25,002 bases of DNA from a virus. The stretch spans positions 1-25,002 of the IMG/VR virus record IMGVR_UViG_3300044732_000842, one strand, 5' to 3'. Positions 1-25,002 of this stretch are shown here, one piece after another. Made by a program: the position numbers and the translations under genes. The notes below the pieces were generated by a model. The model had not been told where the DNA came from. It did no database searches and saw only the letters and a program-made list of their open reading frames with translations. The number at the start of each line of letters is the position of its first letter. Position 1 is the first letter of the stretch.

Positions 1-1
1 G

Positions 2-1873: not shown

Positions 1874-1884
1874 AGTAAAAATAT

Positions 1885-1942: not shown

Positions 1943-1948
1943 TGTACT

Positions 1949-3130
1949 ATGACGCATGCTATAGATCAAATCCTTAATGAATATTATCAAAGAAGAACAT
2001 TGCGAGAAATAAATCGTCGAAATGATGAAATTCTAAGCAGTCTGTCCAAACAGATTGCACACAATGTATATCTCACACAGCGCCAGGCCGATCTTGCGTT
2101 GAAAATTTTCAAAGACAATCATCAACATTTTCCTAGCCTTCAGGGACTATTGGAAAATCCTGTATGGAGTCATGAATTTAGAACCATTGAATATTTCAAA
2201 TACCTACATCTAATTAAACCACCAACTCAAGATCGATATTTGTTGGAATTGGGCTTCAATCACAACAAGTCATTGTCAAAAAAATTAGATGAGTTAAAGA
2301 AACAAAGTTTAACAAATCCGTTGATCAGAATCAAAAATAATGTTTGGCAAATAGTGTATTGTGAAAAAGATCTATACAGTTTGGTCAATCTGGTGTCTGG
2401 TCATAATTTTGACATTTCACCTGAAATTTTGGAAGTTTACCAAGAAATTGACAATATCTTAAAAACTCCAAATCATGATCAAATCTATATTGATGTCAAC
2501 GGATCTGAATATTTGAAAAATTCAGTGGTGAACGACATTGGCACTTTAGACAAAACTAATATTTTGTTAGAGGACCGAAAAATCAAGTTTCAATATGAAA
2601 TTTTTGACAGTTTTTTCCAAAAAACACCAGCGGTGTCACTAGAGGAAAAAATTGCTGTTAGACCAACATCACAAGTTTACATTAGTCCTACAGATTTTTC
2701 ATTGACTGAAATTGTCAGTGCGTTGCAAAAATTGCAAAGATTTCCTACGTTGATAGTGTTTGACAACAACATCGAAAAATCCATGAAAATTCTGGAAAAA
2801 CTCAATACTGCATTAACTGTTAACAATGTTGTTGATTCGGTTGGAATCTATTTTAGATATGACAACGATAAAGACGGCAAACCTTTTAATGAGATGGTCA
2901 ACCAATTGGCCTATAACAAACCATTAAATAATAATACAGCCATAGTAGGCATTACCAACTGGAAAATTCCTAAATTTTTGCTAAAAATGCAGTGGCACCC
3001 ACGCAGTGTGATAGTGATGTCATCGGTGTTCGGTTCCAATCGGGTGAACCTATATACCAAGAGTTGTGACCTAGTTATTTTTCATCAAGACAAGAAACCC
3101 TTAACAGAGGCTATAAAAGAAATTGTGTAA
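1949..3130 (+). CDS. Unrecognised protein encoded upstream of uvsW
   Basis: The product is 393 residues from the ATG at 1949. A start at 1901 would give 409 residues, but the perfect -35/-10 pair lies between the two, so the 1901 start would be upstream of the transcript. I do not recognise the family. The first 60 residues are charged and helical (LTQRQADLALKIFKDNH resembles a helical linker seen in phage DNA-metabolism proteins). The C-terminal 150 residues alternate hydrophobic strands and helices (FPTLIVFDNN, NTAIVGITNWKIP, RSVIVMSSVFG, CDLVIFHQD), like a Rossmann or RecA-type alpha/beta fold, but without a Walker A motif. It overlaps the uvsW start by 8 nt, so coupling to recombination or replication is likely. 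No function is claimed. Confidence 0.8.
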   Translation: MTHAIDQILNEYYQRRTLREINRRNDEILSSLSKQIAHNVYLTQRQADLALKIFKDNHQHFPSLQGLLENPVWSHEFRTIEYFKYLHLIKPPTQDRYLLELGFNHNKSLSKKLDELKKQSLTNPLIRIKNNVWQIVYCEKDLYSLVNLVSGHNFDISPEILEVYQEIDNILKTPNHDQIYIDVNGSEYLKNSVVNDIGTLDKTNILLEDRKIKFQYEIFDSFFQKTPAVSLEEKIAVRPTSQVYISPTDFSLTEIVSALQKLQRFPTLIVFDNNIEKSMKILEKLNTALTVNNVVDSVGIYFRYDNDKDGKPFNEMVNQLAYNKPLNNNTAIVGITNWKIPKFLLKMQWHPRSVIVMSSVFGSNRVNLYTKSCDLVIFHQDKKPLTEAIKEIV

Positions 3131-4577: not shown

Positions 4578-4578
4578 C

Positions 4579-5085: not shown

Positions 5086-5426
5086 AACAAGGTAAAATAT
5101 GGGGCCAAACAGAATTGTTAGAGGCCAACGGAGTATTAGAATTTCATCGAATCGAGGCCAAGGCGGGTGGTGTGTGTTCAAAACACAAACATGAATTTAA
5201 ATGGAACGGATTCTTTGTTGAATCTGGAGAGATGATCATTCGTGTTTGGAAAAATAATTATGACCTAGTGGATGAAACTGTATTGACTGCTGGGCAGTAT
5301 ACAAAAGTTGCACCCGGCGAATATCATCAGTTCGAATCTGTCACTGACTGTATAGCCTTTGAACTGTATTGGGCAGAATTTGATCACAACGATATAGAAA
5401 GAGAGACTGTGGGATTTAGTAAATGA
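5082..5426 (+). CDS. Small cupin-domain protein
   Basis: The product is 114 residues, the size of a single cupin barrel. The first cupin motif is seen in KAGGVCSKHKHEFKWNGFFVESGEM (residues 27-51), with His35, His37 and Glu50 as likely metal ligands or pocket residues; the second is PGEYHQFE (78-85) with His82. Cupins of this type often accompany nucleotide-sugar genes as 3,5- or 3,4-isomerases or as sensors. Here the protein is small and soluble and opens the sugar island, overlapping both neighbours as ATGA. A sugar-isomerase or sugar-binding role is inferred only from context; the fold is well supported. Confidence 0.85.
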   Translation: MKQGKIWGQTELLEANGVLEFHRIEAKAGGVCSKHKHEFKWNGFFVESGEMIIRVWKNNYDLVDETVLTAGQYTKVAPGEYHQFESVTDCIAFELYWAEFDHNDIERETVGFSK

Positions 5427-6367: not shown

Positions 6368-6370
6368 TTT

Positions 6371-7690: not shown

Positions 7691-7700
7691 AGAGAGAAAA

Positions 7701-13128: not shown

Positions 13129-13900
13129 TCACTGTGCAGGGTGCGGGTCAACTAATGTTTCTAAAAAAACTGCGTATCTATCTCAATTTGTTTCGTGGAG
13201 AACAACAGGAAATAAACCGATGATTAATATGCCCAACTTGTTAGTTACCTGTAATGATTGCGGATTCTCAGCTTCTCGAATTCGTTTTACTAATGAAGAA
13301 GAAGCAAACTTATATAAAGACTACAGGGGTGAAAAATACAATAGGATGAGATTAGAGTGCGAACCAAAGTATGAAACTAGTTCTATTTTTAATACAAATT
13401 ATATTAACGATAGATTAGAGTTTATTACAGAAATGATTGGACGAAACATTGACTCTAATAAAATAAATTCAGTATTAGATTATGGTGGGGGTGCTGGAGA
13501 ACTAATTCCTCCAGCGTTCACAAAAGCCATTAAATATGTTTACGATATTAGTGGTGTAGAACCCTTAGACGGAATTAAAAAATTAAATCCAACAATTGAT
13601 AAAGATCCTATGGATTTTATCATGTGCTGTCAGGTACTAGAACATAAATCGGATATGGATGAATTAATTAATATTTTAAAATCATACATGGTTACAGACA
13701 GCTGGATTTATATAGAGGTTCCGGTATATAGGAATCCTCCGCCAGATGATGTTATAATAGGGGAGCATATAAACTTTTTTAACGAACAATCGCTTGTAGC
13801 AATATTAGATAGACACGGTATATGTGCAATAGATACTACAAAAAATTATATGTTAGGGGCAATGGCTGTATTAGGAAAATTTAATTCAAAAAGCTGTTAG
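13115..13900 (+). CDS. SAM methyltransferase with N-terminal zinc ribbon
   Basis: The product is 261 residues. Two CxxC pairs (Cys7/Cys10 and Cys46/Cys49) form a zinc ribbon at the N-terminus, as in sugar C-methyltransferases and related class I enzymes. SAM motif I is VLDYGGGAGEL (120-130) and a post-motif with MCCQVLEHKSDMDELIN (about 170-186) is typical of Methyltransf_12-like folds. Full sugar C-methyltransferases (about 400 residues) have an extra C-terminal domain, which is absent. Methylation of a nucleotide sugar or glycan is inferred from position. It is the last gene of the coupled run that began at 5082. Confidence 0.83.
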   Translation: MYTIDHCAGCGSTNVSKKTAYLSQFVSWRTTGNKPMINMPNLLVTCNDCGFSASRIRFTNEEEANLYKDYRGEKYNRMRLECEPKYETSSIFNTNYINDRLEFITEMIGRNIDSNKINSVLDYGGGAGELIPPAFTKAIKYVYDISGVEPLDGIKKLNPTIDKDPMDFIMCCQVLEHKSDMDELINILKSYMVTDSWIYIEVPVYRNPPPDDVIIGEHINFFNEQSLVAILDRHGICAIDTTKNYMLGAMAVLGKFNSKSC

Positions 13901-13929
13901 TAGAATATTTATTTGTATTTTATTAAGTT

Positions 13930-13937
13930 TATAAATA
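13930..13937 (+). promoter_or_regulatory. T4-type late promoter TATAAATA
   Basis: TATAAATAATCA starts at 13930. The first 8 bases are the T4 late-promoter box, normally at -13 to -6, which predicts +1 near 13943, one base before the ATG at 13944. The same 12-mer recurs at 24329. Confidence 0.8.
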
Positions 13938-13943
13938 ATCAAT

Positions 13944-14642
13944 ATGATACCATTAAATTTAAAAAACAAAATAAACAAACACGGGTTTATGTTAGCCTGT
14001 GATACTGTATACCTCAATAATTGGACTAAACCTTTATTTTTTTCAATTCAAAAATACTGTCCCTGGGCTCACATACATATTCATGTGTTTGATCCAACTC
14101 CTTCAGACATTGTCTGGCTTTCTTCTCATAACTGCTCGTACTCGACAGAAAATACTCCTTCTGAATTTACCGACTGGGCATCAAAAGGATTGTATTGGTC
14201 AGTAGCTCGGTATGCTAGAGTTTTAGAAATTTATACAGACGATACTCTAGTTATTGATTTAGATGTTGATAGTGTTGTAGTTAACCCCATTCCTCAAACA
14301 GAATTTCTTAAAGATTTAGAATCAAGTTGGGTTCCCACAAGACTTAAAGGTGGACAAATAAAAAGTTTAGCTAGTGCAGTAGGATTTGGAGCAGATCGAA
14401 CAAGATACATATTGGCCGAATTATTAATGGATGCATACAAAAATAATAAATTAGTATTTGCCGCGGATCAAGCAATACTAAATGGTATGATTGGAAGAAA
14501 CGAAATTAAAAAAATGGATTTAAGATATACTGATTATAAATTTGGTAAAAACGGAGTTTCTTATATCTGGACCGGAAAAGGCGACAGAGTTAAAGAGCCT
14601 AAATTTGTTAAAATGATTGATCAATATAGACATATGAAATAA
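13944..14642 (+). CDS. Glycosyltransferase-like protein (GT-A, DxD)
   Basis: The product is 232 residues from the ATG at 13944, six bases after the late-promoter box; an internal Met16 is a weaker alternative. The sequence opens with GFMLACDTVYLNNWTKPLFFSI, the first strand and helix of a GT-A fold, and TLVIDLDVDSVVVNPI (101-116) carries a DxDxD run (Asp105, Asp107, Asp109) as the nucleotide-sugar/metal motif. AADQAILNGMI near residue 175 matches the acceptor-side DQ..N motif of related GT8/GT77-like proteins. With its own late promoter it is likely expressed with virion genes, so it may glycosylate a virion protein or attach the cluster sugar. Donor unknown. Confidence 0.8.
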   Translation: MIPLNLKNKINKHGFMLACDTVYLNNWTKPLFFSIQKYCPWAHIHIHVFDPTPSDIVWLSSHNCSYSTENTPSEFTDWASKGLYWSVARYARVLEIYTDDTLVIDLDVDSVVVNPIPQTEFLKDLESSWVPTRLKGGQIKSLASAVGFGADRTRYILAELLMDAYKNNKLVFAADQAILNGMIGRNEIKKMDLRYTDYKFGKNGVSYIWTGKGDRVKEPKFVKMIDQYRHMK

Positions 14643-14644
14643 TT

Positions 14645-14875
14645 TTTCTAGAACAAGCAATTGATAGGTCAACTAATCAAATAGAAAACTTAGGCCATGG
14701 AGTTGGAACATCAGTTAAACAAATGATTAACCTATATAAGAAAGTCAATAACTGTGAATTTGATGTTAGGGTATGCCCTAGAAGAGCAGGCGATCTTGAG
14801 CGTAGTGTACTTGACAATCCGTCTTCTTTTATGCAACAGTTGTATACTATGGAAGATTTATTATGGGTTCCTTAA
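14645..14875 (+). pseudogene. galE: 3' remnant of a GalE-type UDP-glucose 4-epimerase
   Basis: An open frame of about 76 codons with no usable start reads ENLGHGVGTSVKQMINLYKK, then CEFDVRVCPRRAGDLERSV, then LYTMEDLLWVP and a TAA at 14873-14875. This is the C-terminal end of UDP-galactose 4-epimerases: the N-L-G-x-G-x-G-x-S-V helix start, the PRRxGD motif and the final amphipathic helix are all there. The first three quarters of the enzyme, with the NAD site and YxxxK, are missing, and the frame closes with a TAG at 14627-14629, inside the preceding gene. The remnant marks a recombination or deletion scar at the right edge of the sugar island. Its end overlaps the next gene in another frame by 13 nt. 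Confidence 0.85.
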
Positions 14876-15141
14876 CTCCAGGCGCAACTTATATATACGA
14901 GCGAAATGGTGAGGAAATATACGCTAGAGAGTTTGGTTCTGACTCGAGCACACGCCAAATAATTGGTTATGATCACAAACTAGATTCTCGCACTAATGAT
15001 GGAAGACCCTTATATGATCGCATTATGGAAGACAAGATGTGGGGTGAAATTCGCCGTATGGCTCCCACCAATCCTGCTTTACAAAAGGCCTTGGATCGTG
15101 CTATAATGATATACAGACTAAGCAAGGATAATCCGCAGTGA
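14863..15141 (+). CDS. Small conserved T4-like phage protein
   Basis: The product is 92 residues (GSLTPGATYIYERNGEEIYAREFG near the start, DHKLDSRTNDGRPLYDRIMEDKMW in the middle). It fits, from memory, a small protein conserved in marine T4-like phages, with no known function. The start is ATG at 14863 with a GGAAG run 7 nt upstream; that region also encodes the end of the GalE remnant in another frame, so the ribosome site now depends on a decayed gene. It is charged and soluble, without a signal peptide. It overlaps the next gene by 4 nt (GTGA). Confidence 0.82.
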   Translation: MGSLTPGATYIYERNGEEIYAREFGSDSSTRQIIGYDHKLDSRTNDGRPLYDRIMEDKMWGEIRRMAPTNPALQKALDRAIMIYRLSKDNPQ

Positions 15142-15617
15142 GTGAAAAACTCGAACTCAAAGAAAAATTAGCAGCCATTGATCTCGGGGCAAGATCTCTA
15201 TGGGATGATGTTAACGAAGACGAACGCAAACGTATTAAAGGTGAATTTTTCATCCTCAATCGATACATCAGCAGTGTTAAAAGCAACAATAGGGATGTTG
15301 CAGAACATTATGTGTTGGCAGTGAATGAGTACTTTAACAAACACTGGTACACATTACAACAACATCCAAAACTGTTGTGGCAACTGTTGTGTCTATGCGG
15401 CCATGATAGCAAACAAGTATTTTTTCATGAGTGGATTGGTTTTAAGAAAAAAGAAAAAGCCACTAACAAAAAAACTAAATTTTTATCCGAGGCATTTCCC
15501 AATGCTAAATTAACCGATATAGAATTGATGAGTAAGATAATGCCTATTGCAGAATTGAAATTACATGCTGAACGGTTGGGATATGATGATCAACAAATTA
15601 AAAAATTGCTTGACTGA
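15138..15617 (+). CDS. Conserved T4-like phage protein, possibly replication related
   Basis: The product is 159 residues from a GTG start at 15138 that overlaps the previous stop. It is mostly helical: GEFFILNRYISSVK, AEHYVLAVNEYFNKHW, HPKLLWQLLCLCG, HEWIGFKKKEKATNKKTKFL, then a C-terminal helix pair (FPNAKLTDIELMSKI, LGYDDQQIKKLL). In size and in the aromatic N-terminal/basic middle pattern it recalls small clamp-loader subunits (T4 gp62), but key gp62 features such as the KR-x-x-x-W-x-K stretch are not clear, so I do not assign it. It lies 8 nt before the zinc-finger protein, and these small genes look co-transcribed. Confidence 0.78.
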   Translation: MSEKLELKEKLAAIDLGARSLWDDVNEDERKRIKGEFFILNRYISSVKSNNRDVAEHYVLAVNEYFNKHWYTLQQHPKLLWQLLCLCGHDSKQVFFHEWIGFKKKEKATNKKTKFLSEAFPNAKLTDIELMSKIMPIAELKLHAERLGYDDQQIKKLLD

Positions 15618-15625
15618 AATAAGGT

Positions 15626-16330
15626 ATGTTAAAATTGTTAGATCAACCAGTTAGTCAACTGTATGTGTGTGAACACTGCGGAACCAAGTTTACCAAAGAA
15701 AAAACTCTGGTTGTGCATATGTGCGAGCAAAAACGTAGATATCTTGCCAAGGATGAAAAACATGTTATCTTAGGATATACGGTATACAATCGATTCTATA
15801 GACTAACACAAAAACAAAAGCATGACAAAACATATTTAGAGTTTGCCAAGAGCCCCTATTACAATGCATTTGTAAAATTTGGCAGTTTCATGCACAATGT
15901 TAATCCTCTGTATCCAGATCAATACATTGACTTCGTGGTAATCAGCGGTGTCAAACTGGATCATTGGTGTAGAGAAGAATTGTATGAAAAATTTGTACTG
16001 CATCTAATTAAAACAGAATCGGTAGAGATTGCCTTAGAGAGATCTATTGATACCATGTCAAAGTGGGCTGTAGAAAACAATGCTGTATGGAATCATTATT
16101 TCAATTACATCAGCCCCAGCAGAGCCATGTTTAATATTAAAGATGGAAAGATATCTCCATGGCTGTTGTTGAACTGCAATTCTGGTAGAAATTTATTAAA
16201 TACATTTAATGACGAACAATTGGCAGCAGTAGCAACAATGATTGATCCACCGTTCTGGAAGAAAAAGTTTCGTGATAAAAAGTTCGACATGGAACTGATT
16301 ACGCAGGTAGTCAAGGAGTCAAATTTATAA
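15626..16330 (+). CDS. Zinc-finger protein conserved in T4-like phages
   Basis: The product is 234 residues. Cys15, Cys18, His31 and Cys33 (CEHC...VHMCEQ) make a C2HC zinc finger at the N-terminus, which suggests nucleic-acid or protein binding. The rest (SPYYNAFVKFGSFMHNVNPLYP, SGVKLDHWC, YISPSRAMFNIKDGKISPWLLLNC, MIDPPFWKKKF) fits, from memory, a conserved marine T4-like phage family of unknown function. The A of its TAA stop is the first base of the ATG of the polymerase-III-like gene, so the two are translated together and may act together in DNA metabolism. An AAGG lies only 1 nt before the ATG, an unusually short spacing. Confidence 0.85.
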   Translation: MLKLLDQPVSQLYVCEHCGTKFTKEKTLVVHMCEQKRRYLAKDEKHVILGYTVYNRFYRLTQKQKHDKTYLEFAKSPYYNAFVKFGSFMHNVNPLYPDQYIDFVVISGVKLDHWCREELYEKFVLHLIKTESVEIALERSIDTMSKWAVENNAVWNHYFNYISPSRAMFNIKDGKISPWLLLNCNSGRNLLNTFNDEQLAAVATMIDPPFWKKKFRDKKFDMELITQVVKESNL

Positions 16331-16908
16331 TGCCAGATATCGACATTGATTTCTACGATCGCACCAAAGCACTAGAACATTTCACTCATGTGCGATCTAG
16401 TCGTGTAGACGGTGACAAGTTAGTGGCACATAACACAGGCATTTATGTAACTGACATACCACATGATCCTATTACTAATCTAGCCAACATTGATTACAAC
16501 GAGGCAGAAAATCGAGGTTATTTTAAATTAGATTTTCTCAATGTTGGTATCTATAAAGATGTAAGAGATGAAGAGCATCTTAAAACTTTAATGGAGGCTG
16601 AGCCACTATGGGACCTTTTAGAGCAGGACGATTTCAGCAATTTACTGTTTCATGTCAACGGCCATGGCGCCATTCTGCGGCAGATGAAACCCACGAGTAT
16701 ACTCCAACTAGCGGCAATTTTGGCTATGATAAGACCAGCCAAGAGACATTTGATTGGGAAGGACTGGACGACAGTGATGACGACTATTTGGACAAAGCCC
16801 GAGGATGGTGAGTACTACTTTAAGAAGAGTCATGCTGTGGCCTATGCACAGGCAGTGGTAGTACAAATGAACTTGATATGCGAGCAGATCAGTTACGGTT
16901 ACAGTTAA
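16330..16908 (+). CDS. Mini DNA polymerase III alpha (DnaE palm)-like protein
   Basis: The product is 192 residues, against about 1,100 for bacterial DnaE. It starts at ATG 16330 with AAGGAG about 11 nt upstream. Three blocks follow DnaE order: MPDIDIDFYDR (1-11; Asp3, Asp5, Asp7) matches the catalytic PDxDxDF; NTGIYVTDIP to NRGYFKLDFLNVGIY (35-75; Asp68) matches the HAxGVVI...GxxKxDFLGL block that carries the third catalytic Asp; LFHVNGHGAILRQMKPTSILQLAAILAMIRPAK (106-138) and YYFKKSHAVAYAQAVVVQMNLI (162-183) match the FQ-x-ES-G-M-x-x-x-x-x-xxP...LIAL-RPG and FNKSHAxAYA segments. The PHP, most of the fingers, and the clamp- and tau-binding domains are missing. Function is unknown; polymerase activity is not implied. 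Confidence 0.85.
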   Translation: MPDIDIDFYDRTKALEHFTHVRSSRVDGDKLVAHNTGIYVTDIPHDPITNLANIDYNEAENRGYFKLDFLNVGIYKDVRDEEHLKTLMEAEPLWDLLEQDDFSNLLFHVNGHGAILRQMKPTSILQLAAILAMIRPAKRHLIGKDWTTVMTTIWTKPEDGEYYFKKSHAVAYAQAVVVQMNLICEQISYGYS

Positions 16909-16930
16909 CGTTTTCTTACTAACTGTACCG
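16896..16930. terminator. Hairpin across convergent stop codons, possible bidirectional terminator
   Basis: CGGTTACAGTTA (16896-16907) can pair with TAACTGTACCG (16920-16930), with one bulged T and a 12-nt loop. The left arm and loop edge hold GTTAAC, in which both convergent genes end: TAA at 16906-16908 on the + strand and TAA as the complement of 16905-16907. There is no strong T-run on either side, so termination is a guess. Confidence 0.4.
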
Positions 16931-17276
16931 ATTTACGTTTAACTCGTCTCAGCGTTAAACTTAATATGTTAACCACTGGGCCTAGAATTATCACTACATC
17001 TTTACTGTTGAATGTTTTAATAGCATATTTAAAAGGCTCTAAATCTTTCTTGAGAAAAATATTAATGGGGACTTGACGATTACTTTCCCACCACCATATT
17101 TCACCTTGCTCTAACAGAGCGGTTTTTTCGTCTGGTGTTTTGATAGCACTGAGATCGTAAAAACTGGTAACGTATTGATCTTGATTTATCATCATGCCAA
17201 CATACTCTTGCTCACCGTAGGTCAGCACAGTAATGAAAGGGAGGGTTTGTTCTATGTTTTCTCTTAATTTAACCAT
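16905..17276 (-). CDS. Small - strand phage protein of unknown function
   Basis: The product is 123 residues from the ATG at 17276 (MVKLRENIEQTLPFITVLTYG); the frame extends upstream to a TTG at 17303, but the ATG is the natural start and lies under a late-type promoter on this strand. It has the segment GEQEYVGMMINQDQYVTSFYD, then a Trp-rich stretch WWWESNR and a basic C-terminus ending in RRVKRKSVQLVRKR. No membrane segment or known domain is visible, though the final hydrophobic stretch (DVVIILGPVVNILSL) could be a short buried helix. It seems to be a conserved small phage protein. It is the only - strand gene between 1.9 and 24.9 kb and converges on the polymerase-III-like gene. Confidence 0.75.
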   Translation of the reverse strand: MVKLRENIEQTLPFITVLTYGEQEYVGMMINQDQYVTSFYDLSAIKTPDEKTALLEQGEIWWWESNRQVPINIFLKKDLEPFKYAIKTFNSKDVVIILGPVVNILSLTLRRVKRKSVQLVRKR

Positions 17277-17283
17277 ATAAATA
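17276..17283 (+). promoter_or_regulatory. T4-type late promoter TATAAATA of the 17298 gene
   Basis: The perfect late box at 17276-17283 predicts +1 near 17289. An AAAGGGGA ribosome site (17285-17292) and the ATG at 17298 follow. The T of the box is also the last base of the reverse start codon (CAT 17274-17276) of the leftward gene. Confidence 0.75.
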
Positions 17284-17297
17284 CAAAGGGGATCCAA

Positions 17298-18050
17298 ATG
17301 CAAAAAATTTCAAGTTATTTATATCCAAACCGTGTGATAGTCATAGCGGATTTGGTTTCCTTTCCTGTGGAGATGCAAATCGTGTATCAGCGTATAATAA
17401 AAATTTATAAAAATATTGACAACGTCATCGAATTTGATGTAAAAAATGCTGATCAAAAACGTATCAGTTTAACCAACTACACTATTAAATTTGTCATGAC
17501 AGATTTGAATAATGCATTGATTACAGAAAAGATCGCAACACTGTCTGAGATCACAGGCATATGTTCTGTGAACATAGACGAAAACGACACACTAAATCTA
17601 GACCGTGGATTTTATAATTTTGCAGTGTATATTGAAACAGACAGCGGTGTCAAAACGCTGTTGTATGCAGATGCTAATTTTGGCGGCAAAGGCAAGATTG
17701 AATTGGTTGGGGACTTGATGCCAGTGCCCAGGCCAGTGATCAATATTGCCAGTTTCTTAGAGGAACAAAGTGTACTATACAGCAGTGCGGTCACTGCAGA
17801 ACCAGGCATCAATGGAGACCAAGCACTGCATACCTTTGCTTTTTATCCTACAGCATTGAATGGTACAGTGTACATTGATGCCAGCCTTAGTGAAACCAGC
17901 CAAAGTGTACAATGGGTAGAATTGGACGACTTTGCTGTGGTTCCGGGGGACACAACCTTTTACAAAAACTACACAGGTGTGTACAGTTGGTTTAGAATTA
18001 GATACACCAAGACAGCCGGAACACTTGACAAAGTACTACTGAGAAACTAA
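17298..18050 (+). CDS. Probable virion/baseplate-type structural protein
   Basis: The product is 250 residues. The N-terminal 150 residues (VYQRIIKIYKNIDNVIEFDVKNADQKRISLTNYTIKFVMTD, about 28-68) match the pattern of the N-terminal module of phage baseplate upper proteins (BppU-like): an Ig-like sandwich that starts with a repeated hydrophobic D-N-x-x-x-F-x-V-K strand. The C-terminal half (VYIDASLSETSQSVQWVELDDF, YSWFRIRYTK) is a second beta-rich domain, perhaps carbohydrate-binding. There is no signal peptide. It is expressed from its own late promoter with a good ribosome site, as expected for a virion part, while the adjacent replication genes have sigma70-like promoters. The exact T4 equivalent is not identified. 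Confidence 0.75.
   Translation: MQKISSYLYPNRVIVIADLVSFPVEMQIVYQRIIKIYKNIDNVIEFDVKNADQKRISLTNYTIKFVMTDLNNALITEKIATLSEITGICSVNIDENDTLNLDRGFYNFAVYIETDSGVKTLLYADANFGGKGKIELVGDLMPVPRPVINIASFLEEQSVLYSSAVTAEPGINGDQALHTFAFYPTALNGTVYIDASLSETSQSVQWVELDDFAVVPGDTTFYKNYTGVYSWFRIRYTKTAGTLDKVLLRN
17316..17323 (-). promoter_or_regulatory. T4-type late promoter on the - strand, inside the 17298 gene
   Basis: TATTTATA at 17316-17323 is the reverse complement of TATAAATA. It predicts a leftward transcript from about 17310, giving the gene starting at 17276 a leader of about 34 nt. It lies over codons 7-9 of the rightward gene, so the two late promoters are crossed. Confidence 0.55.
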
Positions 18051-18053
18051 AAT
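18025..18053 (+). promoter_or_regulatory. Sigma70-like promoter of the primase gene, leaderless start predicted
   Basis: TTGACA (18025-18030) and TAAAAT (18048-18053, 5 of 6) are 17 bp apart, and the -10 box overlaps the TAA stop of the previous gene. The predicted +1 is at 18060, one base before the ATG at 18061. Confidence 0.65.
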
Positions 18054-18060
18054 AAGACTA

Positions 18061-19041
18061 ATGAGTCTTATCTTAGAAACCGTACAACAACATTTACCGG
18101 CAAAGCGAAAATCAACCCCTAGTGGGTGGATCAGTTTCAATGCGGTGTGCTGTCATCACAATGGCACCAGTGCTGACAATAGACAGCGTGGCGGCATCAT
18201 GTTGAATGAAGGAGTCAGTTATCATTGTTTCAACTGTGGATTTAAATCTAGTTGGCAACCTGGCCGACACGTCAGTGTAAAGTTTAAAAAACTTCTGCGA
18301 TGGTTGAATGTTTCTGACAGTGACATCAATAAGTGCATGTTAGATGCTCTGAGACGTCACGAAGGTATCGAAGACACTGGAATTAAAAATCCAATTCCTA
18401 CCTTTATAGACAAAGCATTGCCCAGAGGCGCTGAACCCATCGTAAGTTATCTGGATAATCCTCCTGCTGAACTAATGCCAGTATTGCAGTATCTAACTGA
18501 GAGAAAACTGTATTTGGAGGATTATGACTTTTACTGGACAGATGAAGATGGATTCCAAAATAGATTAATTATTCCCTTTTACTTTCAAAATCGTATTGTG
18601 GGATACACTGCTAGAAAAATCACAGAAGGCAAACCCAAATACATCAGTGAACAACAGCCGGGGTATGTGTTTAATTTGGATCAACAAGGTCTCGATCAAA
18701 AGTTTGTCATAGTTGTAGAAGGACCAATTGATGCAATCTGTATCAAAGGTGTGGCCTTGACCAGCGCCGAAGTTGGAGACAGTCAGCGAGCGTTGATCAA
18801 TCGATTACAGCGTCAAGTGATAGTGTTGCCTGATCGAGATCAAGCCGGATGTCGTTTGATAGATCAGGCATTGGAGTTCGGGTGGAGTGTGAGTTTTCCC
18901 GAGTGGGGAGACGATGTCAAAGATGTAAATGATGCTGTGAAAAAATTCGGCAGACTATATACATTGTGGAGCATTGTGCATCACTGTGAGAGCAATGCTC
19001 TTAAAATACAATTGAGGATGAAAAAATGGTTAGTAAAATAA
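18061..19041 (+). CDS. 61: DNA primase (T4 gp61-like)
   Basis: The product is 326 residues, close to T4 gp61 (342), the DnaG-type primase that makes RNA primers with the gp41 helicase. The N-terminal zinc ribbon uses Cys/His residues at 30-33 (CCHH) and Cys56/Cys59 (HCFNCG). The TOPRIM domain shows FVIVVEGPIDAI (215-226; catalytic Glu220) and VIVLPDRDQAG (253-263; Asp258, Asp260). The middle segment NRLIIPFYFQNRIVGYTARKI is the DnaG-family basic region before TOPRIM. It lies under its own sigma70-like promoter. Its end overlaps a 38-residue gene, and the helicase gene is about 1.7 kb downstream on the same strand. Confidence 0.93.
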   Translation: MSLILETVQQHLPAKRKSTPSGWISFNAVCCHHNGTSADNRQRGGIMLNEGVSYHCFNCGFKSSWQPGRHVSVKFKKLLRWLNVSDSDINKCMLDALRRHEGIEDTGIKNPIPTFIDKALPRGAEPIVSYLDNPPAELMPVLQYLTERKLYLEDYDFYWTDEDGFQNRLIIPFYFQNRIVGYTARKITEGKPKYISEQQPGYVFNLDQQGLDQKFVIVVEGPIDAICIKGVALTSAEVGDSQRALINRLQRQVIVLPDRDQAGCRLIDQALEFGWSVSFPEWGDDVKDVNDAVKKFGRLYTLWSIVHHCESNALKIQLRMKKWLVK

Positions 19042-19142
19042 TTTATTGGTTGTCTACACCGTGGCGTAGATATCAGCAACGACGAGCCCTAGCACGACGA
19101 ATTGAAGAATTACGCAAACGTGACCCGTTTATTTACAAATGA
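19026..19142 (+). CDS. 38-residue basic microprotein
   Basis: This short gene starts at ATG 19026, inside the last codons of the primase gene in another frame (16-nt overlap), and ends at TGA 19140-19142, which overlaps the next ATG as ATGA. The product opens MVSKIIYWLSTPWRRYQQRR and ends ARRIEELRKRDPFIYK: a short hydrophobic start, then a very basic helix. The same C-terminal run (EELRKRDPFIYK) recurs, from memory, in small proteins of T4-like marine phages, which supports it being real. The amphipathic start could lie on a membrane; the rest could bind nucleic acid. No function is known. Confidence 0.7.
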   Translation: MVSKIIYWLSTPWRRYQQRRALARRIEELRKRDPFIYK

Positions 19143-19738
19143 CCATACTAGCAGTAGGATGTAGTTTTTTATGCGATAGATCTGAGGTGCGGCCCCAGTG
19201 TGCTGTCATGGCCGAACGACTTGATCAGCCGCTGGACAATCGCAGTATCCCCGGCAACGGAAACACACACATCCTGTACAACACAATGACAGCCATAATC
19301 GAAAATCCCAACAAGTATTCCTTGGTTTTAATCGGATGGAGCAATCCTGGTAGATGGGATTTTGTAACTGCTCCACACAAGTGGTTTGCCTTAAAGATGG
19401 GTAACGTCATAGGAACAGCCACTGATAAAAAAATAAATTTTGAATTAACATTATTTAAACATTGGGCTCCTCAAGTGCTTTTGTTATCTTCTTGGCTGAG
19501 ATCGAGAAACATTCCTTTTATAATGTGGAACAGTTTAGAATGTTGGTTAGAAGGAGAAAGCACGTTACATAAAGAAATTTTGTCTATACCCGAATTTTAT
19601 AAACCAAAAATAAATCATATTGCTGATCTAAGAGAAAGAGAACAATGGATTTCAAATGATGATCATCATCCAAATCAACAGAGTCATGATCTGTGGGCTC
19701 AAGAATTATTAGACTTTAATAGGACTTTATATAAATGA
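19139..19738 (+). CDS. SGNH/GDSL-hydrolase-like protein
   Basis: The product is 199 residues. Block I is VGCSF (6-10; nucleophile Ser9), a GNGNTH stretch near 39-44 supplies the block II/III Gly and Asn, and NDDHHPNQQSHDLWAQEL (173-190) carries the DxxH of block V (Asp174, His177). That is the SGNH esterase layout, used by carbohydrate deacetylases and acyl esterases. There is no signal peptide. It lies between primase and carbamoyltransferase, overlapping both neighbours by 4 nt, so it is in the same coupled string. Removal or transfer of an acyl group on a phage or host glycan is the likely role, inferred from the fold. Confidence 0.82.
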   Translation: MTILAVGCSFLCDRSEVRPQCAVMAERLDQPLDNRSIPGNGNTHILYNTMTAIIENPNKYSLVLIGWSNPGRWDFVTAPHKWFALKMGNVIGTATDKKINFELTLFKHWAPQVLLLSSWLRSRNIPFIMWNSLECWLEGESTLHKEILSIPEFYKPKINHIADLREREQWISNDDHHPNQQSHDLWAQELLDFNRTLYK

Positions 19739-20685
19739 TTGAATGGGGCATCAACGCTCTTAATCACGGCAGCAGCCTGGCGGTGTTCAAGGATGGCGTA
19801 TTTCAGCAGGCCACATTCAGCACTGACGACGAACTGCCTAGCGATGTTATTCGCACAGCACTGGATTTTAGTGCTCCTGATCGCATCTATTGGTATGAAA
19901 ATCCATGGCTTAAGAAGGCAAGACAAATACGTGCCAAACAATACAGCACAGCATTTGACTTAACCAACTTGCCTTCACGCTATCTTAAACAAGCAAGATT
20001 AGGATATGCTCCAATAACCTATACGCAACATCACACCAGTCATGCTGCCGCAGGTTATTACACAAGTCCTTTTAATCATTGTGCTATTGTGGTGCTGGAT
20101 GCCATAGGTGAGTTTGAATGTGCTACTATATGGGAAGGTCGGTACGGGGAAATGAAGAAAGTGTGGAGTAGAAGTTATCCACATAGTTTGGGATTGTTTT
20201 ATAGTGCATTTACTCAGTTTGTTGGCCTAACACCAATCCGCGACGAACACTTATTTCAAAAGATGGCTGCTCAAGGAACTCCAAATAGATTTCGTAGAGA
20301 AGTAGGCAATTACTTTGGTGTTGGACCAGTTGAATTAACTGAAAACTTTCATAGAGGTGTACGGACGTGGGATCAAAATATGTTAAGCACATTGCAAGAA
20401 CAATGTGATCTTGCTGCCGCAGTTCAGGAACGCTTTGAAATTGAAATAAGCAAAGTGATGTGCGAGGCTCAACGATTAGTCAATACCGATTGTCTAGTGT
20501 ACATGGGCGGGTGTGCTATGAATAGTGCCGCTAACAAACAAGAAGTAGAACCCAAGTTTAAATATCGTTGGAGTTTGCCAAATCCTGGAGACCCTAGCAG
20601 CGCAATAGGTGCTGTGGCCTATCATCGTAAACAACGAATACATCACGACTGGGCACCAGTCAAACACCTTGCAATTAATGTATAA
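19735..20685 (+). CDS. Carbamoyltransferase, N-terminal domain only (NodU/TobZ-like)
   Basis: The product is 316 residues against about 550-600 for NodU/TobZ. The HSP70/actin-like first domain is present: GINALNHGSSLAVF (5-18), QHHTSHAAAGYYTSPF (98-113; His99, His103 as metal ligands), VVLDAIGEFECATIW (Asp122), GGCAMNSAANK (near 258) and LPNPGDPSSAIGA. The second domain, which in TobZ forms carbamoyl phosphate-derived adenylate or completes transfer, is absent, and the gene ends in a normal stop with no remnant downstream. So this is either a minimal enzyme or one needing a partner. It is placed among DNA replication genes but probably decorates a sugar or a nucleoside. Confidence 0.88.
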   Translation: MIEWGINALNHGSSLAVFKDGVFQQATFSTDDELPSDVIRTALDFSAPDRIYWYENPWLKKARQIRAKQYSTAFDLTNLPSRYLKQARLGYAPITYTQHHTSHAAAGYYTSPFNHCAIVVLDAIGEFECATIWEGRYGEMKKVWSRSYPHSLGLFYSAFTQFVGLTPIRDEHLFQKMAAQGTPNRFRREVGNYFGVGPVELTENFHRGVRTWDQNMLSTLQEQCDLAAAVQERFEIEISKVMCEAQRLVNTDCLVYMGGCAMNSAANKQEVEPKFKYRWSLPNPGDPSSAIGAVAYHRKQRIHHDWAPVKHLAINV

Positions 20686-20697
20686 AGAAAGTATAAT
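20669..20697 (+). promoter_or_regulatory. Sigma70-like promoter of the helicase gene, leaderless start predicted
   Basis: TTGCAA (20669-20674, 5 of 6) and TATAAT (20692-20697) are 17 bp apart. The -35 box lies in the last codons of the carbamoyltransferase. The predicted +1 is the A of the ATG at 20704. Confidence 0.7.
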
Positions 20698-20703
20698 AGA
20701 ACA

Positions 20704-22194
20704 ATGACCACAAGACAAAACGCAGACTATGGATATGATATCCAAAAACTTTATTTAGAAATGATGCTCTCTGATGCAGAGACATTTGTACGCTGTCAAA
20801 GCATCTTTGATCACGAACTGTTTGACAGAAAACTACAAAGTACTGCCAAGTTTGTCAATGACTATGTAACAGATCACAGTGTATTGCCCACGTATGATAT
20901 TGTCAATGCTGCCACTGGCAGTAAACTACAGCGAGCAGATGATTTAAAAGAAGAACATTATGATTGGTTATTGACAGACTTTGAAACATTTATTCGACAC
21001 AAAGGTTTGGAAAAAGCCATTCTTGAAAGCGCAGATTTATTGGAAAAGGGCGAGTATGGCCCAGTTGAGGATCTAGTCAAACGAGCAGTGCAAATTGGCT
21101 TGACCAAAGACATGGGCACAGACTACTTTTTAGATCCTCGCGCTCGTTTAATGAGGATCAAAGACAACAACGGCCAAATGAAAACTGGTTGGGAGACTGT
21201 GGACAAGCGACTGTTCGGGGGTATGAATCGCGGAGAACTCAATATCTTTGCCGGCGGTTCGGGTGCGGGCAAAAGTCTGTTTCTAGCCAACTTGGGAGTC
21301 AACTGGGCACTGCAAGGACTCAACGTAGTATACTTGACATTAGAACTCAGCGAGGAATTGGTCAGTATGCGTATTGACAGTATGATTACTGAAATTCCTG
21401 TGCGAGAGATTTTCAAGCAGATCGACGATGTAGAAATGCGGGTTAAAATTATCGGCAAGAAGTCGGGCACATATCAAGTAAAATATCTTGCCAGTGGCAA
21501 AACTGCCAACGATGTGCGCAGTTACTTGAAAGAATATGAAATCAAATTGGGTCGTAAAGTTGACATACTGTTAGTGGACTACTTGGATCTGTTGATGCCC
21601 ATCAGCAAAAAGATCTCCGCAGAAAATCTGTTTATCAAGGACAAGTATGTCAGTGAAGAACTGCGTAATTTGGCAGTAGAGAAAAACTGTGTGCTGGTCA
21701 CGGCAGCACAGTTGAATCGTGGTGCAGTTGAAGAAGTAGAATTTGATCACAGCCATATTTCAGGTGGACTTAGCAAGATTCAAACAGCAGACAACGTGTT
21801 TGGTATCTTTACCAGTCGAGCCATGCGTGAACGGGGCAAGTATCAAATACAGTTGATGAAAACTCGCAGTTCAAGCGGTGTGGGCATGAAGATTGATCTA
21901 GATTTTGACATTGACACATTGCGTATTACAGATCCAGGAGAAGATGAATATCAAGCCCAAAGTGGCACAAGTTCACCGTCACAAATCTATAATCAGATCA
22001 AACAAAAATCTAACATACAATCCGGTGACAGTGACACTGCCGCTACTGCTTCTGGGACTGCATGGCAACGTGGACAACCGCGAGCGGGAGTGGATCCTTT
22101 GGCTGGCATCAGCGTGGCAAAACCCAAAGCCACTGTGGAAAGTAGCAAACTACGTGAACTGATCAACAACATTGGCAACGATGATTCACTGTGA
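20704..22194 (+). CDS. 41: Replicative DNA helicase (T4 gp41/DnaB-like)
   Basis: The product is 496 residues (T4 gp41 is 475). The N-terminal 130 residues are the helical collar; FAGGSGAGKSLFLANLGVNWALQG (182-205) is Walker A, VVYLTLELSEEL follows it, VDILLVDYLDLL (about 280-291) is Walker B, and VTAAQLNRGA and HISGGLSKIQTADNVF are the DnaB-family motifs H3 and H4. The last 65 residues are low-complexity (SGTSSPSQ, AATASGTAWQRGQP), a likely flexible tail. It drives the replication fork with the gp61-like primase encoded just upstream. A strong sigma70-like promoter directly precedes it. Confidence 0.95.
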   Translation: MTTRQNADYGYDIQKLYLEMMLSDAETFVRCQSIFDHELFDRKLQSTAKFVNDYVTDHSVLPTYDIVNAATGSKLQRADDLKEEHYDWLLTDFETFIRHKGLEKAILESADLLEKGEYGPVEDLVKRAVQIGLTKDMGTDYFLDPRARLMRIKDNNGQMKTGWETVDKRLFGGMNRGELNIFAGGSGAGKSLFLANLGVNWALQGLNVVYLTLELSEELVSMRIDSMITEIPVREIFKQIDDVEMRVKIIGKKSGTYQVKYLASGKTANDVRSYLKEYEIKLGRKVDILLVDYLDLLMPISKKISAENLFIKDKYVSEELRNLAVEKNCVLVTAAQLNRGAVEEVEFDHSHISGGLSKIQTADNVFGIFTSRAMRERGKYQIQLMKTRSSSGVGMKIDLDFDIDTLRITDPGEDEYQAQSGTSSPSQIYNQIKQKSNIQSGDSDTAATASGTAWQRGQPRAGVDPLAGISVAKPKATVESSKLRELINNIGNDDSL

Positions 22195-22233
22195 TCCGTG
22201 CTGTATGGTAAATAACAGCATGGAGTATCTAAC

Positions 22234-23820
22234 ATGGATTTAGCAGGCAAATTTCGGCAACTGGTGGAACAACAACCATTTGATCAGTTTCAAACTACTC
22301 GTGATCGCGACGCGGCCAAGTGGATTAGTCAACACGGTGGTGCTGCCATTGCCCTAGTGGGTGACAGCATAGCATTTGGTATCAGCAGTCAATTGAATCA
22401 AGGAGTGGTTGCAGATGCTGCCAAGGGATTGACCAGCACAGCAGTGTTGAGTCGTATCAAAGCCAATGTAAAACTGAAAAATGCCACTACTGCTGTGATC
22501 AGTGTGGGCAGCAACGACATTGTGGGCGGTCGAGGCAATGCTGCCATGTTGACTGCCAATGCACAAAAAATACGTAACGAACTCAATGCCAAGCAGTATA
22601 TTTGGATTGTGCCCTACGATTCAGTAGCCGCTGATGCTATTGACAAAGCCAAGGGCGCAGGAGATCAACTGATTACGCTGAAAGATTTCAGCACCAATGA
22701 CGGTGTACATCCCAGTAGTTACACTGCTGTGGCCAATGCTATTAGAAGCATGGTCAAAACCACTGCACAGCCCCGAGCAGACGCTGCTCCAACTACACAG
22801 AAATTTTCTGGCATTACAGTAGCCGATGAGCCTGTGATACCTGGTCAACCGTTAAGTCCACGACAGATGGCAGTGGTAGACATGAGCAAGTCCATGGGCA
22901 ACACACCCGGGCCAGAAGTGCAAGCAGCCTATGATCTAGCCAAACAGTCTACTGCGGCCAGTGGTGGCGCCGCACAGCCACAGAGTCAAACTCAGCCCGA
23001 GGATGTTGAAACACTGCAAAAGGCTTTGATGGCAGCAGGGTTTGACCTGCCTAAATATGGTGCAGACGGCAAAATGGGTCCCGAGACCAAGCAGGCTATA
23101 TTGCGAGCAGAACAGAAGTTGGGTCGCAGTCCCACTGGATCGATTACCACTCAAGAATTGGCCAAACTGAAAGGCACAACAGCAACAACACCGGCACCAG
23201 CAGCCACAGCAGCCAAACCCATGGATGCTGACAAATTGGCCAAATTGACTCAGTCCGTTGCCAACATGGAACAGGCACTGAGCAGAATCAAAAAAGAAAG
23301 CATACAGCGAGATCCAGTGTCAGAAATGGCGCAGTGGCGCACAATGATCGAAGCAGGACCCAGGACTGCTGCACAACAGGCTTCAATGCAGGCGGCAGCC
23401 ACTGGAGTTAATCCGCCTAATGATCCCTTTGGATTGGCTGCTGGCAGAACAGCACCAACAACACCACCAACAACTGGTAAATTGCAGCGACTGGGTCAAA
23501 ATTTAGCCAAGCGTGTGGTAGGCAGTGGGGGCGGAGCAGCAGGCGCTGCCAAGGCTGCAGGCAAGTTGGGCTTGCGAGCAATACCCTATTTGACCTTGCC
23601 TTTGTTGGCCTATGACCTGTATGGCGCATGGCGAGACGGTGTTGAAGAAGATGAACTAGCCCTTGATGCTGAAGTTCGTGCTGTGGTAGAACGAGAAATG
23701 GAAGCCATAATGACCATGGCAGATGATGCCGAAGCCATGGGCACCATACCAAAAGAACTGCAAGATCGAATTGCAAAAATCAAGCAACAATTAGAAGACT
23801 ACAAAAACAAAAACCGATAA
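22234..23820 (+). CDS. SGNH hydrolase fused to peptidoglycan-binding domain, large C-terminal tail
   Basis: The product is 528 residues. An SGNH hydrolase occupies about 38-170: VGDSIAFG (42-49; Ser45), VGSNDIVGG (91-99; Asn94) and TNDGVHPSSY (154-163; Asp156, His159). A PGRP1/PG_binding_1-like domain follows at 256-312 (DVETLQKALMAAGF, GADGKMGPETKQAILRAEQKLG). After Ala/Pro/Thr-rich linkers there is a Gly/Ala-rich run and one hydrophobic segment (about 437-452, LRAIPYLTLPLLAYDLYGAW), then an acidic coil. No signal peptide is seen. ATG 22234 has a GGAG run upstream. The likely role is a virion or lysis-related enzyme acting at the host cell wall; the composition is noticeably more G+C- and Ala-rich than the genes to the left. 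Confidence 0.85.
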   Translation: MDLAGKFRQLVEQQPFDQFQTTRDRDAAKWISQHGGAAIALVGDSIAFGISSQLNQGVVADAAKGLTSTAVLSRIKANVKLKNATTAVISVGSNDIVGGRGNAAMLTANAQKIRNELNAKQYIWIVPYDSVAADAIDKAKGAGDQLITLKDFSTNDGVHPSSYTAVANAIRSMVKTTAQPRADAAPTTQKFSGITVADEPVIPGQPLSPRQMAVVDMSKSMGNTPGPEVQAAYDLAKQSTAASGGAAQPQSQTQPEDVETLQKALMAAGFDLPKYGADGKMGPETKQAILRAEQKLGRSPTGSITTQELAKLKGTTATTPAPAATAAKPMDADKLAKLTQSVANMEQALSRIKKESIQRDPVSEMAQWRTMIEAGPRTAAQQASMQAAATGVNPPNDPFGLAAGRTAPTTPPTTGKLQRLGQNLAKRVVGSGGGAAGAAKAAGKLGLRAIPYLTLPLLAYDLYGAWRDGVEEDELALDAEVRAVVEREMEAIMTMADDAEAMGTIPKELQDRIAKIKQQLEDYKNKNR

Positions 23821-23830
23821 CGAGCAAAAC

Positions 23831-24301
23831 ATGTTAGTAGAAATAACAGACACAGATCTAGACCTCACACTAGAAGATCCCGTGAGACCAATGGTGCCCA
23901 TGTCATGGCGTCGTGAGCACACTGTTTGGGCATGGATGGAGAATCAACAGCGAGCAGCCACAGTGTGTGTTGCTTGGTTGGATTCAGTGCCCGACAGTGA
24001 AGAAGGCATGTTGATCATGCCCCGTGGATTCAAAGCAGTGGCCTACACTATTTGGAGCACAGCACCGGGTGCGGGCAAACGATTGATACTGGCACTGCAG
24101 GAAATGGTCAAAGAAAATCCTCTGTGTGAAGGCATGTATACACTGAGTCCCCCAACTGAGATGGCTCGTAAATTCCACATCAGCAACGGTGCTCGTGTGT
24201 ACAGAATCAACGAGCAGACCATCAACTATCAATACCAGCACGACAAAACCGCGGAACCCACAGCCCAACAGCGCGAAGCGCAGCGAAGCAAAAATTTGTA
24301 A
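23831..24301 (+). CDS. GNAT-like fold protein of T4-like phages
   Basis: The product is 156 residues. FKAVAYTIWSTAPGAGKRLILALQEMV resembles the GNAT acetyl-CoA loop and helix (AGAGKRL in place of the R/Q-x-x-G-x-G/A motif), and TEMARKFHISNGARVYRIN matches the final GNAT beta-bulge strand (a-x-x-F-h-x-x-N-G). The N-terminus is short for a full GNAT protein. From memory, similar proteins are conserved in marine T4-like phages and unannotated. The C-terminal tail is polar, with Gln and basic residues, and is encoded partly by a GCGAAGC direct repeat (24273-24279, 24283-24289). Acyltransferase activity is possible but unproven. Confidence 0.75.
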   Translation: MLVEITDTDLDLTLEDPVRPMVPMSWRREHTVWAWMENQQRAATVCVAWLDSVPDSEEGMLIMPRGFKAVAYTIWSTAPGAGKRLILALQEMVKENPLCEGMYTLSPPTEMARKFHISNGARVYRINEQTINYQYQHDKTAEPTAQQREAQRSKNL

Positions 24302-24310
24302 GCAATTTTT
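24290..24310 (+). terminator. Weak AT hairpin at the end of the GNAT-like gene
   Basis: AAAAATT (24290-24296) can pair with AATTTTT (24304-24310) around a 7-nt loop that includes the TAA stop. It is A-T only, so it would be weak; it may just reflect base composition. Confidence 0.25.
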
Positions 24311-24328
24311 TAGGTCATTAAACTAGCA

Positions 24329-24336
24329 TATAAATA
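24329..24336 (+). promoter_or_regulatory. T4-type late promoter TATAAATA of the DUF454 gene
   Basis: TATAAATAATCA begins at 24329, the same 12-mer as at 13930. The box predicts +1 at 24342, the A of the ATG. Confidence 0.8.
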
Positions 24337-24341
24337 ATCAC

Positions 24342-24773
24342 ATGCTGACCAATATTAAAAAATTCTTATACTTCACACTGGGATGCTTCTGCATCGTGAT
24401 GGCCTACATTGGCGTCGTCACTCCGGGCATTCCCTATAGTCCATTTGTAGTAGCAGCCGCATTCTGCTTTGCACGTAGCAGTGAACGAGCACATCGTTGG
24501 ATTATGACGCACCCAATCTTCGGACCGTTCTTAACCAACTGGAGCACCAAACGTGTGTTCCCACAGCGTATGAAATACTTGATGATTGGCATGATGTCAC
24601 TGAGTCTAGTGTTGATGACTGTGTCGGGCGTTAAACCAATTGGCATCCTAAGCACTGGTATCTTTATGCTGTTGGTAGCAGTGTGGGCATGGCGCTATCC
24701 CAGCACAGTGGATGAACATGATCAACGTGTAGCCAACGGTAAAAAGATTGGCTGGTTCAACAATAAAATTTAA
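24342..24773 (+). CDS. DUF454 (YbaN-like) inner-membrane protein
   Basis: The product is 143 residues, a little longer than E. coli YbaN (about 125). It has the DUF454 layout: a first membrane segment FLYFTLGCFCIVMAYIGVVTPGIPYSPFVVAAAFCFARSSER (8-49, containing the TPGIPxxPF and CFARSS motifs), a cytoplasmic HPIFGPFLTNW turn, and two further hydrophobic segments (about 79-93 and 98-120). From memory, similar proteins are common in marine T4-like phages; the role is unknown. With a late promoter it is probably made with virion proteins, so a role in the host membrane late in infection is plausible but inferred. A strong terminator follows 50 nt downstream. Confidence 0.88.
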   Translation: MLTNIKKFLYFTLGCFCIVMAYIGVVTPGIPYSPFVVAAAFCFARSSERAHRWIMTHPIFGPFLTNWSTKRVFPQRMKYLMIGMMSLSLVLMTVSGVKPIGILSTGIFMLLVAVWAWRYPSTVDEHDQRVANGKKIGWFNNKI

Positions 24774-24823
24774 CACAGTGTGTGACTGTGTAAACTAGAG
24801 TGAAACTGTGATAATATCATAGA

Positions 24824-24850
24824 AAAAGGACCGGGAGGTCCTTTTAGTTT
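24824..24850 (+). terminator. Rho-independent terminator
   Basis: AAAAGGACC (24824-24832), loop GGGA, then GGTCCTTTT (24837-24845) form a 9-bp perfect stem flanked by A and T runs, the layout of an intrinsic terminator. It closes the rightward transcription unit that includes the DUF454 gene. The A-run on the left lets it also work on the - strand. Confidence 0.85.
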
Positions 24851-24919
24851 GGCAGCGAGAAGAGAAATAATCTAGCCCGAAATGGGTCCTGCAGAGTAAA
24901 AAATTTGCCGCGCAAAAAA

Positions 24920-25002
24920 TTAAGGTGGAGTACTTTTCGTTTCAAGGTGGTGATTTTTACCCATAAGCGTGTAAAAATAGCGTTTACAAAATTGTATTTG
25001 TA
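24920..25002 (-). CDS. Possible 3' end of a leftward gene cut by the right edge
   Basis: On the - strand an open frame enters from the right edge and ends at TAA (complement of 24920-24922), giving 26 visible residues that finish MGKNHHLETKSTPP. No stop occurs between 24923 and the edge. At this length the frame may be chance. The same stretch also holds an AAGGTGG direct repeat (+ strand, 24922-24928 and 24945-24951) and a TACAAA/TTTGTA inverted repeat (24985-25002), which could instead be regulatory. If real, this gene converges on the DUF454 gene with the terminator between them. Confidence 0.25.
   Translation of the reverse strand, partial: QIQFCKRYFYTLMGKNHHLETKSTPP

Follow-up and report, generated by a model that had tools for sequence, protein, structure and literature searches.

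Phages are known to make leaderless mRNAs. The cI mRNA that phage lambda transcribes from pRM in a proteobacterial host begins with its AUG start codon; it is the product of a single gene, however, whereas the subject here is a conserved class. In the Thermus phage phiYS40, most middle and late mRNAs are reported to be leaderless, with IF2 going up and IF3 going down (Sevostyanova et al. 2007, as described in PMC3594737). In Deinococcus-Thermus, it has been shown by experiment that a −10 element adjoining the open reading frame gives leaderless mRNA (PMC12340547), and a paper on the jumbo phage AR9 notes that phage transcripts are often leaderless, the leaders of AR9 itself measuring 26–491 nt (PMC5312081). 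The stretch of DNA considered here, referred to as the window, is a virus record of 25,002 bases (IMG/VR IMGVR_UViG_3300044732_000842) that constitutes its own complete assembly; it carries genes for a UvsW-like helicase, a DNA polymerase fragment, a DnaG-like primase and a DnaB-like helicase, and is treated as a piece of a T4-related jumbo phage that has not been cultured. In the window and its relatives, a minority of promoters lie so close to an ATG that the transcripts would begin on or beside it; this layout is very probably best explained by a conserved minority of mRNAs that lack a leader and arise from host-type and late promoters alike.

As in phiYS40, this concerns large phages in which many transcripts are predicted to be leaderless and to lack a ribosome-binding site. 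In phiYS40 the leaderless mRNAs reportedly form the majority of the middle and late ones, in a host phylum rich in leaderless genes and with changes reported for the IF2 and IF3 of the host; here they would form a minority in both the sigma70-type and the T4-type late class, with full −35 and −10 elements in the sigma70-type class, and in T4-related phages. A programme in which most middle and late transcripts are leaderless is thus not found, the predicted shares being only about 19% and 28%. The genes of Deinococcus-Thermus with a −10 region adjacent to the open reading frame resemble the present ones in the fixed short spacing between −10 element and start codon; they differ in lying on bacterial chromosomes, in having a TANNNT motif for which a −35 box is frequently lacking, and in making up about one third of the genes of D. 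radiodurans (PMC12340547), whereas the present genes belong to phages, have −35 boxes and are joined by a second class with late promoters. The original prediction spoke of a distinct mode of viral gene expression; systematic leaderless transcription in phages has a precedent, however, in the middle and late mRNAs of phiYS40, which are reported as leaderless (PMC3594737). Phage leaderless mRNA is already known from lambda cI and phiYS40, and the variant here is a conserved minority from both promoter types; no report of such a class in T4-related jumbo phages was found in the literature searched, which excluded subscription papers, any transcriptome study of PA5oct among them.

Sigma70-type promoters at two distances from the start codon

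In the window, the promoters of the primase, of DnaB and of a 393-residue protein, and likewise two T4-type late elements, lie 5–7 bases before an ATG (Table 1; the number of bases that separate the −10 or late element from the start codon is called k). The arrangement was originally predicted for ATG 18061, for ATG 20704 and for the promoter at 1914 (k = 7, 6 and 6), as well as for late promoters at 13930 and 24329 (TATAAATA at k = 6 and k = 5), and all these coordinates are correct. The prediction had counted three replication-side genes, which holds for primase and DnaB; the third encodes the 393-residue protein, which has no PHROG match and only a sub-threshold match in Pfam, and is no recognised replication gene. 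Its better start is ATG 1949 and not that of the open reading frame listed at 1901, because the promoter falls inside the longer frame. The window alone contains no more promoter-like sites than shuffled sequence (77 versus 75.4 in positions 1–20000, 42 versus 36.4 in positions 12000–25002), and relatives are therefore needed to decide.

IMG/VR holds many relatives of the window, some as contigs of 265–383 kb. In five long ones (G001–G005; 265–383 kb, 1,766 genes), coding potential was the sole basis for calling genes, and the 90 nt that precede each start were scored with a −35/−10 matrix learned from three of the five genomes, with a cut-off score above 12. This yields 193 promoters, versus 16 in shuffled upstream regions; TTGACA and TATAAT hexamers occur 16–18 nt apart beyond chance, with a 17-nt spacer in 112 of 136 cases in the three-genome set. 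Their distances to the start codon are bimodal: 35 lie at k 5–7, a single one at k 8–16, and 152 at k of at least 17. Gene-anchored shuffles place 1 site at k 5–7, and the close class has a binomial P of 2e-20 if sites are assumed to be spread evenly across the short range; this and the other P-values from pooled genes are optimistic, as the relatives are not independent, so that the argument rests on the controls and on the counts of non-redundant orthologues. The original prediction envisaged a scan for TATAAT at a fixed spacing before ATG. In its raw form (TATAAT-N5-7-ATG) the counts show no excess over the reversed pattern, and the raw count was discarded, since the majority of ATGs do not begin a gene; the signal emerges only with real gene starts and −35 boxes.

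The close class is also set apart by features of the start itself. All 35 close genes start with ATG, and a Shine-Dalgarno (SD) match precedes only 4 of them, versus 114 of the 152 distant ones (Fisher p=3e-12). The base before the ATG is T or C in 30 of 35 (86%), versus 49% of other genes (p=9e-6); this pyrimidine at −1, which played no part in site selection, is a mark expected of transcripts that begin with the A of the start codon. The class amounts to about 19% of strong sigma70-type promoters (35/187), the rest being leadered, mostly with SD. It includes the primase in G001–G004, DnaB clearly in G002–G004, a fragment of the Pol III alpha subunit in G001–G004, a PD-(D/E)XK exonuclease in G001, G003 and G005, and the 393-residue protein in G001, G003, G004 and, more weakly, G005; further members are DnaJ-like, UvdE-like and AcpS-like proteins. 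Close promoters are squeezed against the preceding gene, with a median gap of 32 nt versus 61.5 nt for leadered ones (p=2e-5). At the window's primase, the −35 element lies within the final codons of gene 17298, whose TAA stop (18048–18050) supplies the first three bases of the −10 element TAAAAT (18048–18053), and the same overlap of stop and −10 is seen at the Pol III fragment. An overlap of this kind also occurs at G001 9506–10474 and G004 4294–5289.

The layout is conserved at orthologous genes

In 80 relatives, TATAAT lies 5–8 nt from the ATG of DnaB at most loci, even where a different gene precedes it. For counting, loci whose upstream 45 nt were at least 80% identical were collapsed, and a strict layout was defined as a −35 element with at least 4 of 6 and a −10 element with at least 5 of 6 matches at k 5–8, with the expectation taken from shuffling. 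The enrichment of the spacing among relatives, on which the original prediction hung, is present and far beyond chance: the strict layout is found in 28 of 34 non-redundant loci of the primase (0.16 expected), 21 of 29 of the 393-residue protein (0.26 expected) and 14 of 37 of DnaB (0.22 expected), and in none of the 32–39 loci of each of the neighbouring genes 17298, 14863, 15626, 16330 and UvsW. It persists where the upstream gene has been replaced, and extends to distant homologues of the 393-residue protein (22–41% amino acid identity) as well as to primases from other IMG/VR contigs that are 36–53% identical to the window's; 20 of 33 non-redundant loci of the latter have the strict layout and 1 of 33 an SD match, several of the remaining loci failing by a single −10 base. 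Gene 17298, by contrast, keeps a leadered layout, with an ATAAATA element at 12–30 nt in 27 of 32 non-redundant relatives, and an SD in 22 of 32.

T4-type late promoters also occupy two positions

The late elements resemble the gp55-dependent late promoters of T4. In the relatives the TATAAATA-like element takes the form ATAAATA, which is enriched there, and in most of the genomes it occurs together with a sigma factor of the gp55 family. A Pfam search for sigma70 region 4 gave no match in the relatives, and phrog_234 was used instead; by this measure, a gp55-like late sigma is encoded by four of the five relatives (G001–G004) and by the cultured phages PA5oct, Atu_ph07 and Phosso, and was not found in G005.

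In the five genomes, 50 late elements lie at k 4–8, 2 at k 9–14 and 128 at k 15–33 (binomial P 3e-15 for the close class on the same assumption of evenly spread sites), and the reverse complement of ATAAATA is found 0 times at k 4–8. T4 itself has no ATAAATA 4–8 nt before a gene start and 20 at 15–33 nt, whereas the relatives have both. The sequence logo of the flanks is much alike in the two classes, so that this is one late element used at two positions. Close late genes share the signature of the sigma70-type ones: 49 of 50 start with ATG, SD matches precede 6 of 50 versus 87 of 128 distant ones (p=8e-12), and the base at −1 is a pyrimidine in 46 of 50 versus 78 of 128 (p=2e-5). The close class makes up about 28% of near-gene late promoters (50/178), the rest again being leadered and mostly provided with SD. 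Two late genes conserved in all five genomes are leaderless-type in every one; other late genes switch layout. The systematic use of leaderless mRNAs originally proposed thus finds strong support in the sequence comparisons, as a class spanning sigma70-type and late promoters; as a rule for promoter-proximal genes it does not hold, the class being a discrete minority. The window's own late genes at 13944 and 24342 have, respectively, no usable orthologue at the locus and none in the loci of the relatives, and the class to which they are assigned is shown by the genome-wide scan of late promoters.

Cultured phages with and without the close class

Judged by DnaB, the nearest cultured phages are Pseudomonas phage PA5oct and its kin (55%), Agrobacterium phage Atu_ph07 (51%) and Sinorhizobium phage Phosso (49%). 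Neither the sigma70-type nor the late class has a close member in T4. Atu_ph07 (320 kb examined) has 43 promoters with a score above 12, of which none is close except for one at k=9 with a TTG start, and it likewise has no close late element. The difference from the clade is significant for the close sigma70-type class (p=6e-4) and, with T4 pooled, for the late class (p=7e-6). Phosso has two weak candidate sites.

PA5oct has the close layout at its exonuclease (k=7, annotated start 158242) and at its primase. The sequence at the latter reads TTGACA-17-TATAAT-GTGCGC-GTG, and the annotated GTG start (145884) directly abuts the −10 TATAAT; the stretch concerned is NC_071039.1 145878–145892. This start is probably misannotated, since the in-frame GTG 6 nt later suits both the alignment of homologues and the leaderless spacing; with it, the primase would start with GTG, an exception to the preference for ATG. 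Gene finders that rely on SD may thus misplace starts, as at the PA5oct primase and the window's gene at 1949, and promoter prediction should permit −10 elements that adjoin, or are built from, stop and start codons.

Probable leaderless transcription and its alternatives

In the majority layout, a −10 or ATAAATA element about 17–36 nt before the start would leave room for a leader with SD. In the minority layout, with the element 4–8 nt before the ATG, the host RNA polymerase, or polymerase carrying the late sigma, would start transcription on the A of the ATG or no more than 1–2 bases away. Translation of the leaderless mRNA would then begin at its 5'-terminal AUG, by direct 70S binding if it follows the known biochemistry: in E. 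coli, leaderless mRNAs are mostly 70S-bound and AUG is strongly preferred, high IF3 discriminates against them, and they benefit from additional initiator tRNA (PMC9031893). The genes so expressed would be those of primase, DnaB, the Pol III alpha fragment, the PD-(D/E)XK exonuclease and the 393-residue protein on the sigma70 side, together with some conserved late genes. A likely benefit would be compactness, as the 3' end of the preceding gene can accommodate a whole early or middle promoter; the TAA stop that doubles as the beginning of a −10 element would explain how a replication promoter finds its place where a late gene ends and only about 10 bases are free.

The geometry, its conservation, the bimodal distances, the absence of SD, the exclusive use of ATG and the pyrimidine at −1 are direct observations; several points weigh against reading them as leaderless transcription. 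The transcription start, the 70S initiation and the rationale for the layout are what we infer from the sequences, and the gene starts are predictions of our own caller. In 7 of the 35 close sigma70-type genes k is 5; these need a 5-nt discriminator, because a start 7 nt past the −10 would fall within the ATG, and some cases with k of 7–8 would carry leaders of 1–2 nt instead of none. The full strict promoter of DnaB is present in only 14 of 37 loci, with a weak −35 in G001, and the conservation of the −35 at many primase loci is partly a protein constraint, since TTGACA there overlaps codons that are conserved in the preceding gene. Late orthologues switch class at times, a leaderless one being present in 7 of 21 late families with a cross-genome orthologue, and these genes could also be expressed from mRNA that reads through from upstream.

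Of the other explanations, adaptation to a host rich in leaderless genes, such as Actinomycetota or Caulobacterales, has a modest but real chance of being the proper account, the layout then not being a phage-specific trait. Leaderless genes are reported to be frequent in some bacteria (PMC4117421, PMC4633059, PMC12340547), and searches of genome contigs for homologues of the DUF454 protein and of the aminotransferase identified no host for the clade; PA5oct, however, infects Pseudomonas aeruginosa, and yet its primase and exonuclease have the layout. Such adaptation would moreover account for tolerance of the layout and does not deny leaderless mRNA.

It is quite unlikely that the elements are A/T-rich sequences that enhance translation or avoid structure near the ATG, in transcripts that begin farther upstream. 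These genomes are A/T-rich (GC 36–42%), with A-rich start-codon regions, and internal genes without SD exist; yet the −10 is accompanied by a −35 hexamer 16–18 nt away, the same late element with similar flanks occurs at leader distance, and the base before the ATG is T or C, whereas A is typical of other genes. Furthermore, the SD-poor internal gene 15626 (SD in 1 of 36) does without the element (0 of 36). The chances are slimmer still that real promoters serve internal or downstream starts, the true genes being longer or shorter and having ordinary leaders. The start codons are indeed predicted, and the annotated primase start of PA5oct abuts its −10; the predicted starts, however, match the alignments of distant orthologues, their spacing peaks sharply at 5–7 nt even though starts were chosen by coding potential only, and the alternative GTG of PA5oct, 6 nt past the −10, fits the alignment better. 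Chance TATAAT near ATG in A/T-rich sequence, in keeping with the raw counts and with the lack of excess in the window alone, is already refuted by the comparative counts (35 real sites versus 1 at k 5–7, 28 of 34 primase orthologues versus 0.16) and by T4 and Atu_ph07, which have no close sites.

If 5' ends lie where leaderless transcription predicts them, leaderless expression would be a conserved layout of very common aquatic giant phages, used by host-type and late promoters alike and beyond a curiosity of lambda cI or a Thermus phage; PA5oct on P. aeruginosa would then offer a test bed for the competition of leaderless mRNA during infection.

Translation components encoded by the phages

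Genes for the ribosomal protein bS21 are found in G001, G002, G003, G005, PA5oct, Atu_ph07 and Phosso, and a tRNA with the C1-A72 mismatch of initiators in G002–G004, PA5oct and Atu_ph07, with a CAT anticodon in G002–G004. Both are possible helpers of leaderless translation. As a mark of the leaderless clade they were rejected, since both occur in Atu_ph07, which is without the close class. An IF3 homologue is encoded by Atu_ph07 and Phosso and was not found in the five relatives or PA5oct; a rule by which phages that encode IF3 lack the leaderless class is not clean, as Phosso combines IF3 with its two weak candidate sites. It is rather improbable, though conceivable, that these parts belong to a two-channel programme of a deep and abundant T4-related jumbo clade, with SD initiation bypassed by replication genes and by part of the late virion genes with the support of phage bS21 and the initiator-like tRNA, so that key proteins are preferred when infection alters the ribosomes. 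G001–G005 have 28–41 tRNA genes each, two of the genomes including a tRNA with a CTA anticodon, which would read UAG.

Gene content of the window

Table 1. Promoter elements and associated genes of the window, in order of position.
Feature	Position	Strand	Remarks
Perfect sigma70 promoter, 12/12 consensus	TTGACA 1914–1919, 17 nt, TATAAT 1937–1942	+	k=6 to ATG 1949
Gene of 393-aa protein, predicted leaderless (k=6)	1949..3130	+	start 1949, not 1901
T4-type late element TATAAATA	13930–13937	+	k=6 to ATG 13944
Gene, predicted leaderless late	13944..14642	+	no PHROG or Pfam match
Late element and SD of gene 17298, leadered (contrast)	ATAAATA 17277–17283, SD run AAAGGGG 17285–17291	+	k=14 to ATG 17298
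Primase promoter, sigma70-type	TTGACA 18025–18030, 17 nt, TAAAAT 18048–18053	+	k=7 to ATG 18061
DnaG-like primase gene, predicted leaderless (k=7)	18061..19041	+	phrog_47 E=1.7e-39
Helicase promoter, sigma70-type	TTGCAA 20669–20674, 17 nt, TATAAT 20692–20697	+	k=6 to ATG 20704
DnaB-like replicative helicase gene, predicted leaderless (k=6)	20704..22194	+	phrog_19 E=1.1e-67
T4-type late element TATAAATA	24329–24336	+	k=5 to ATG 24342
DUF454 membrane protein gene, predicted leaderless late	24342..24773	+	PF04304 E=1.5e-29

DnaE-like Pol III alpha appears to be split into small genes: the window has a piece of 192 residues (phrog_11778, 16330–16908), and a distant piece of 161–170 residues (phrog_11127, PF07733), leaderless in type, is found at G001 191877–192362, G002 288283–288783, G003 184641–185153 and G004 191418–191924; the annotation of Phosso also contains a similar short piece. 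Between or adjoining the replication genes, window positions 14–13900 hold a long block of surface-polysaccharide type, judged from its translations, with a sugar epimerase, an aminotransferase, a NeuB-like synthase, a TPP enzyme and methyltransferases.

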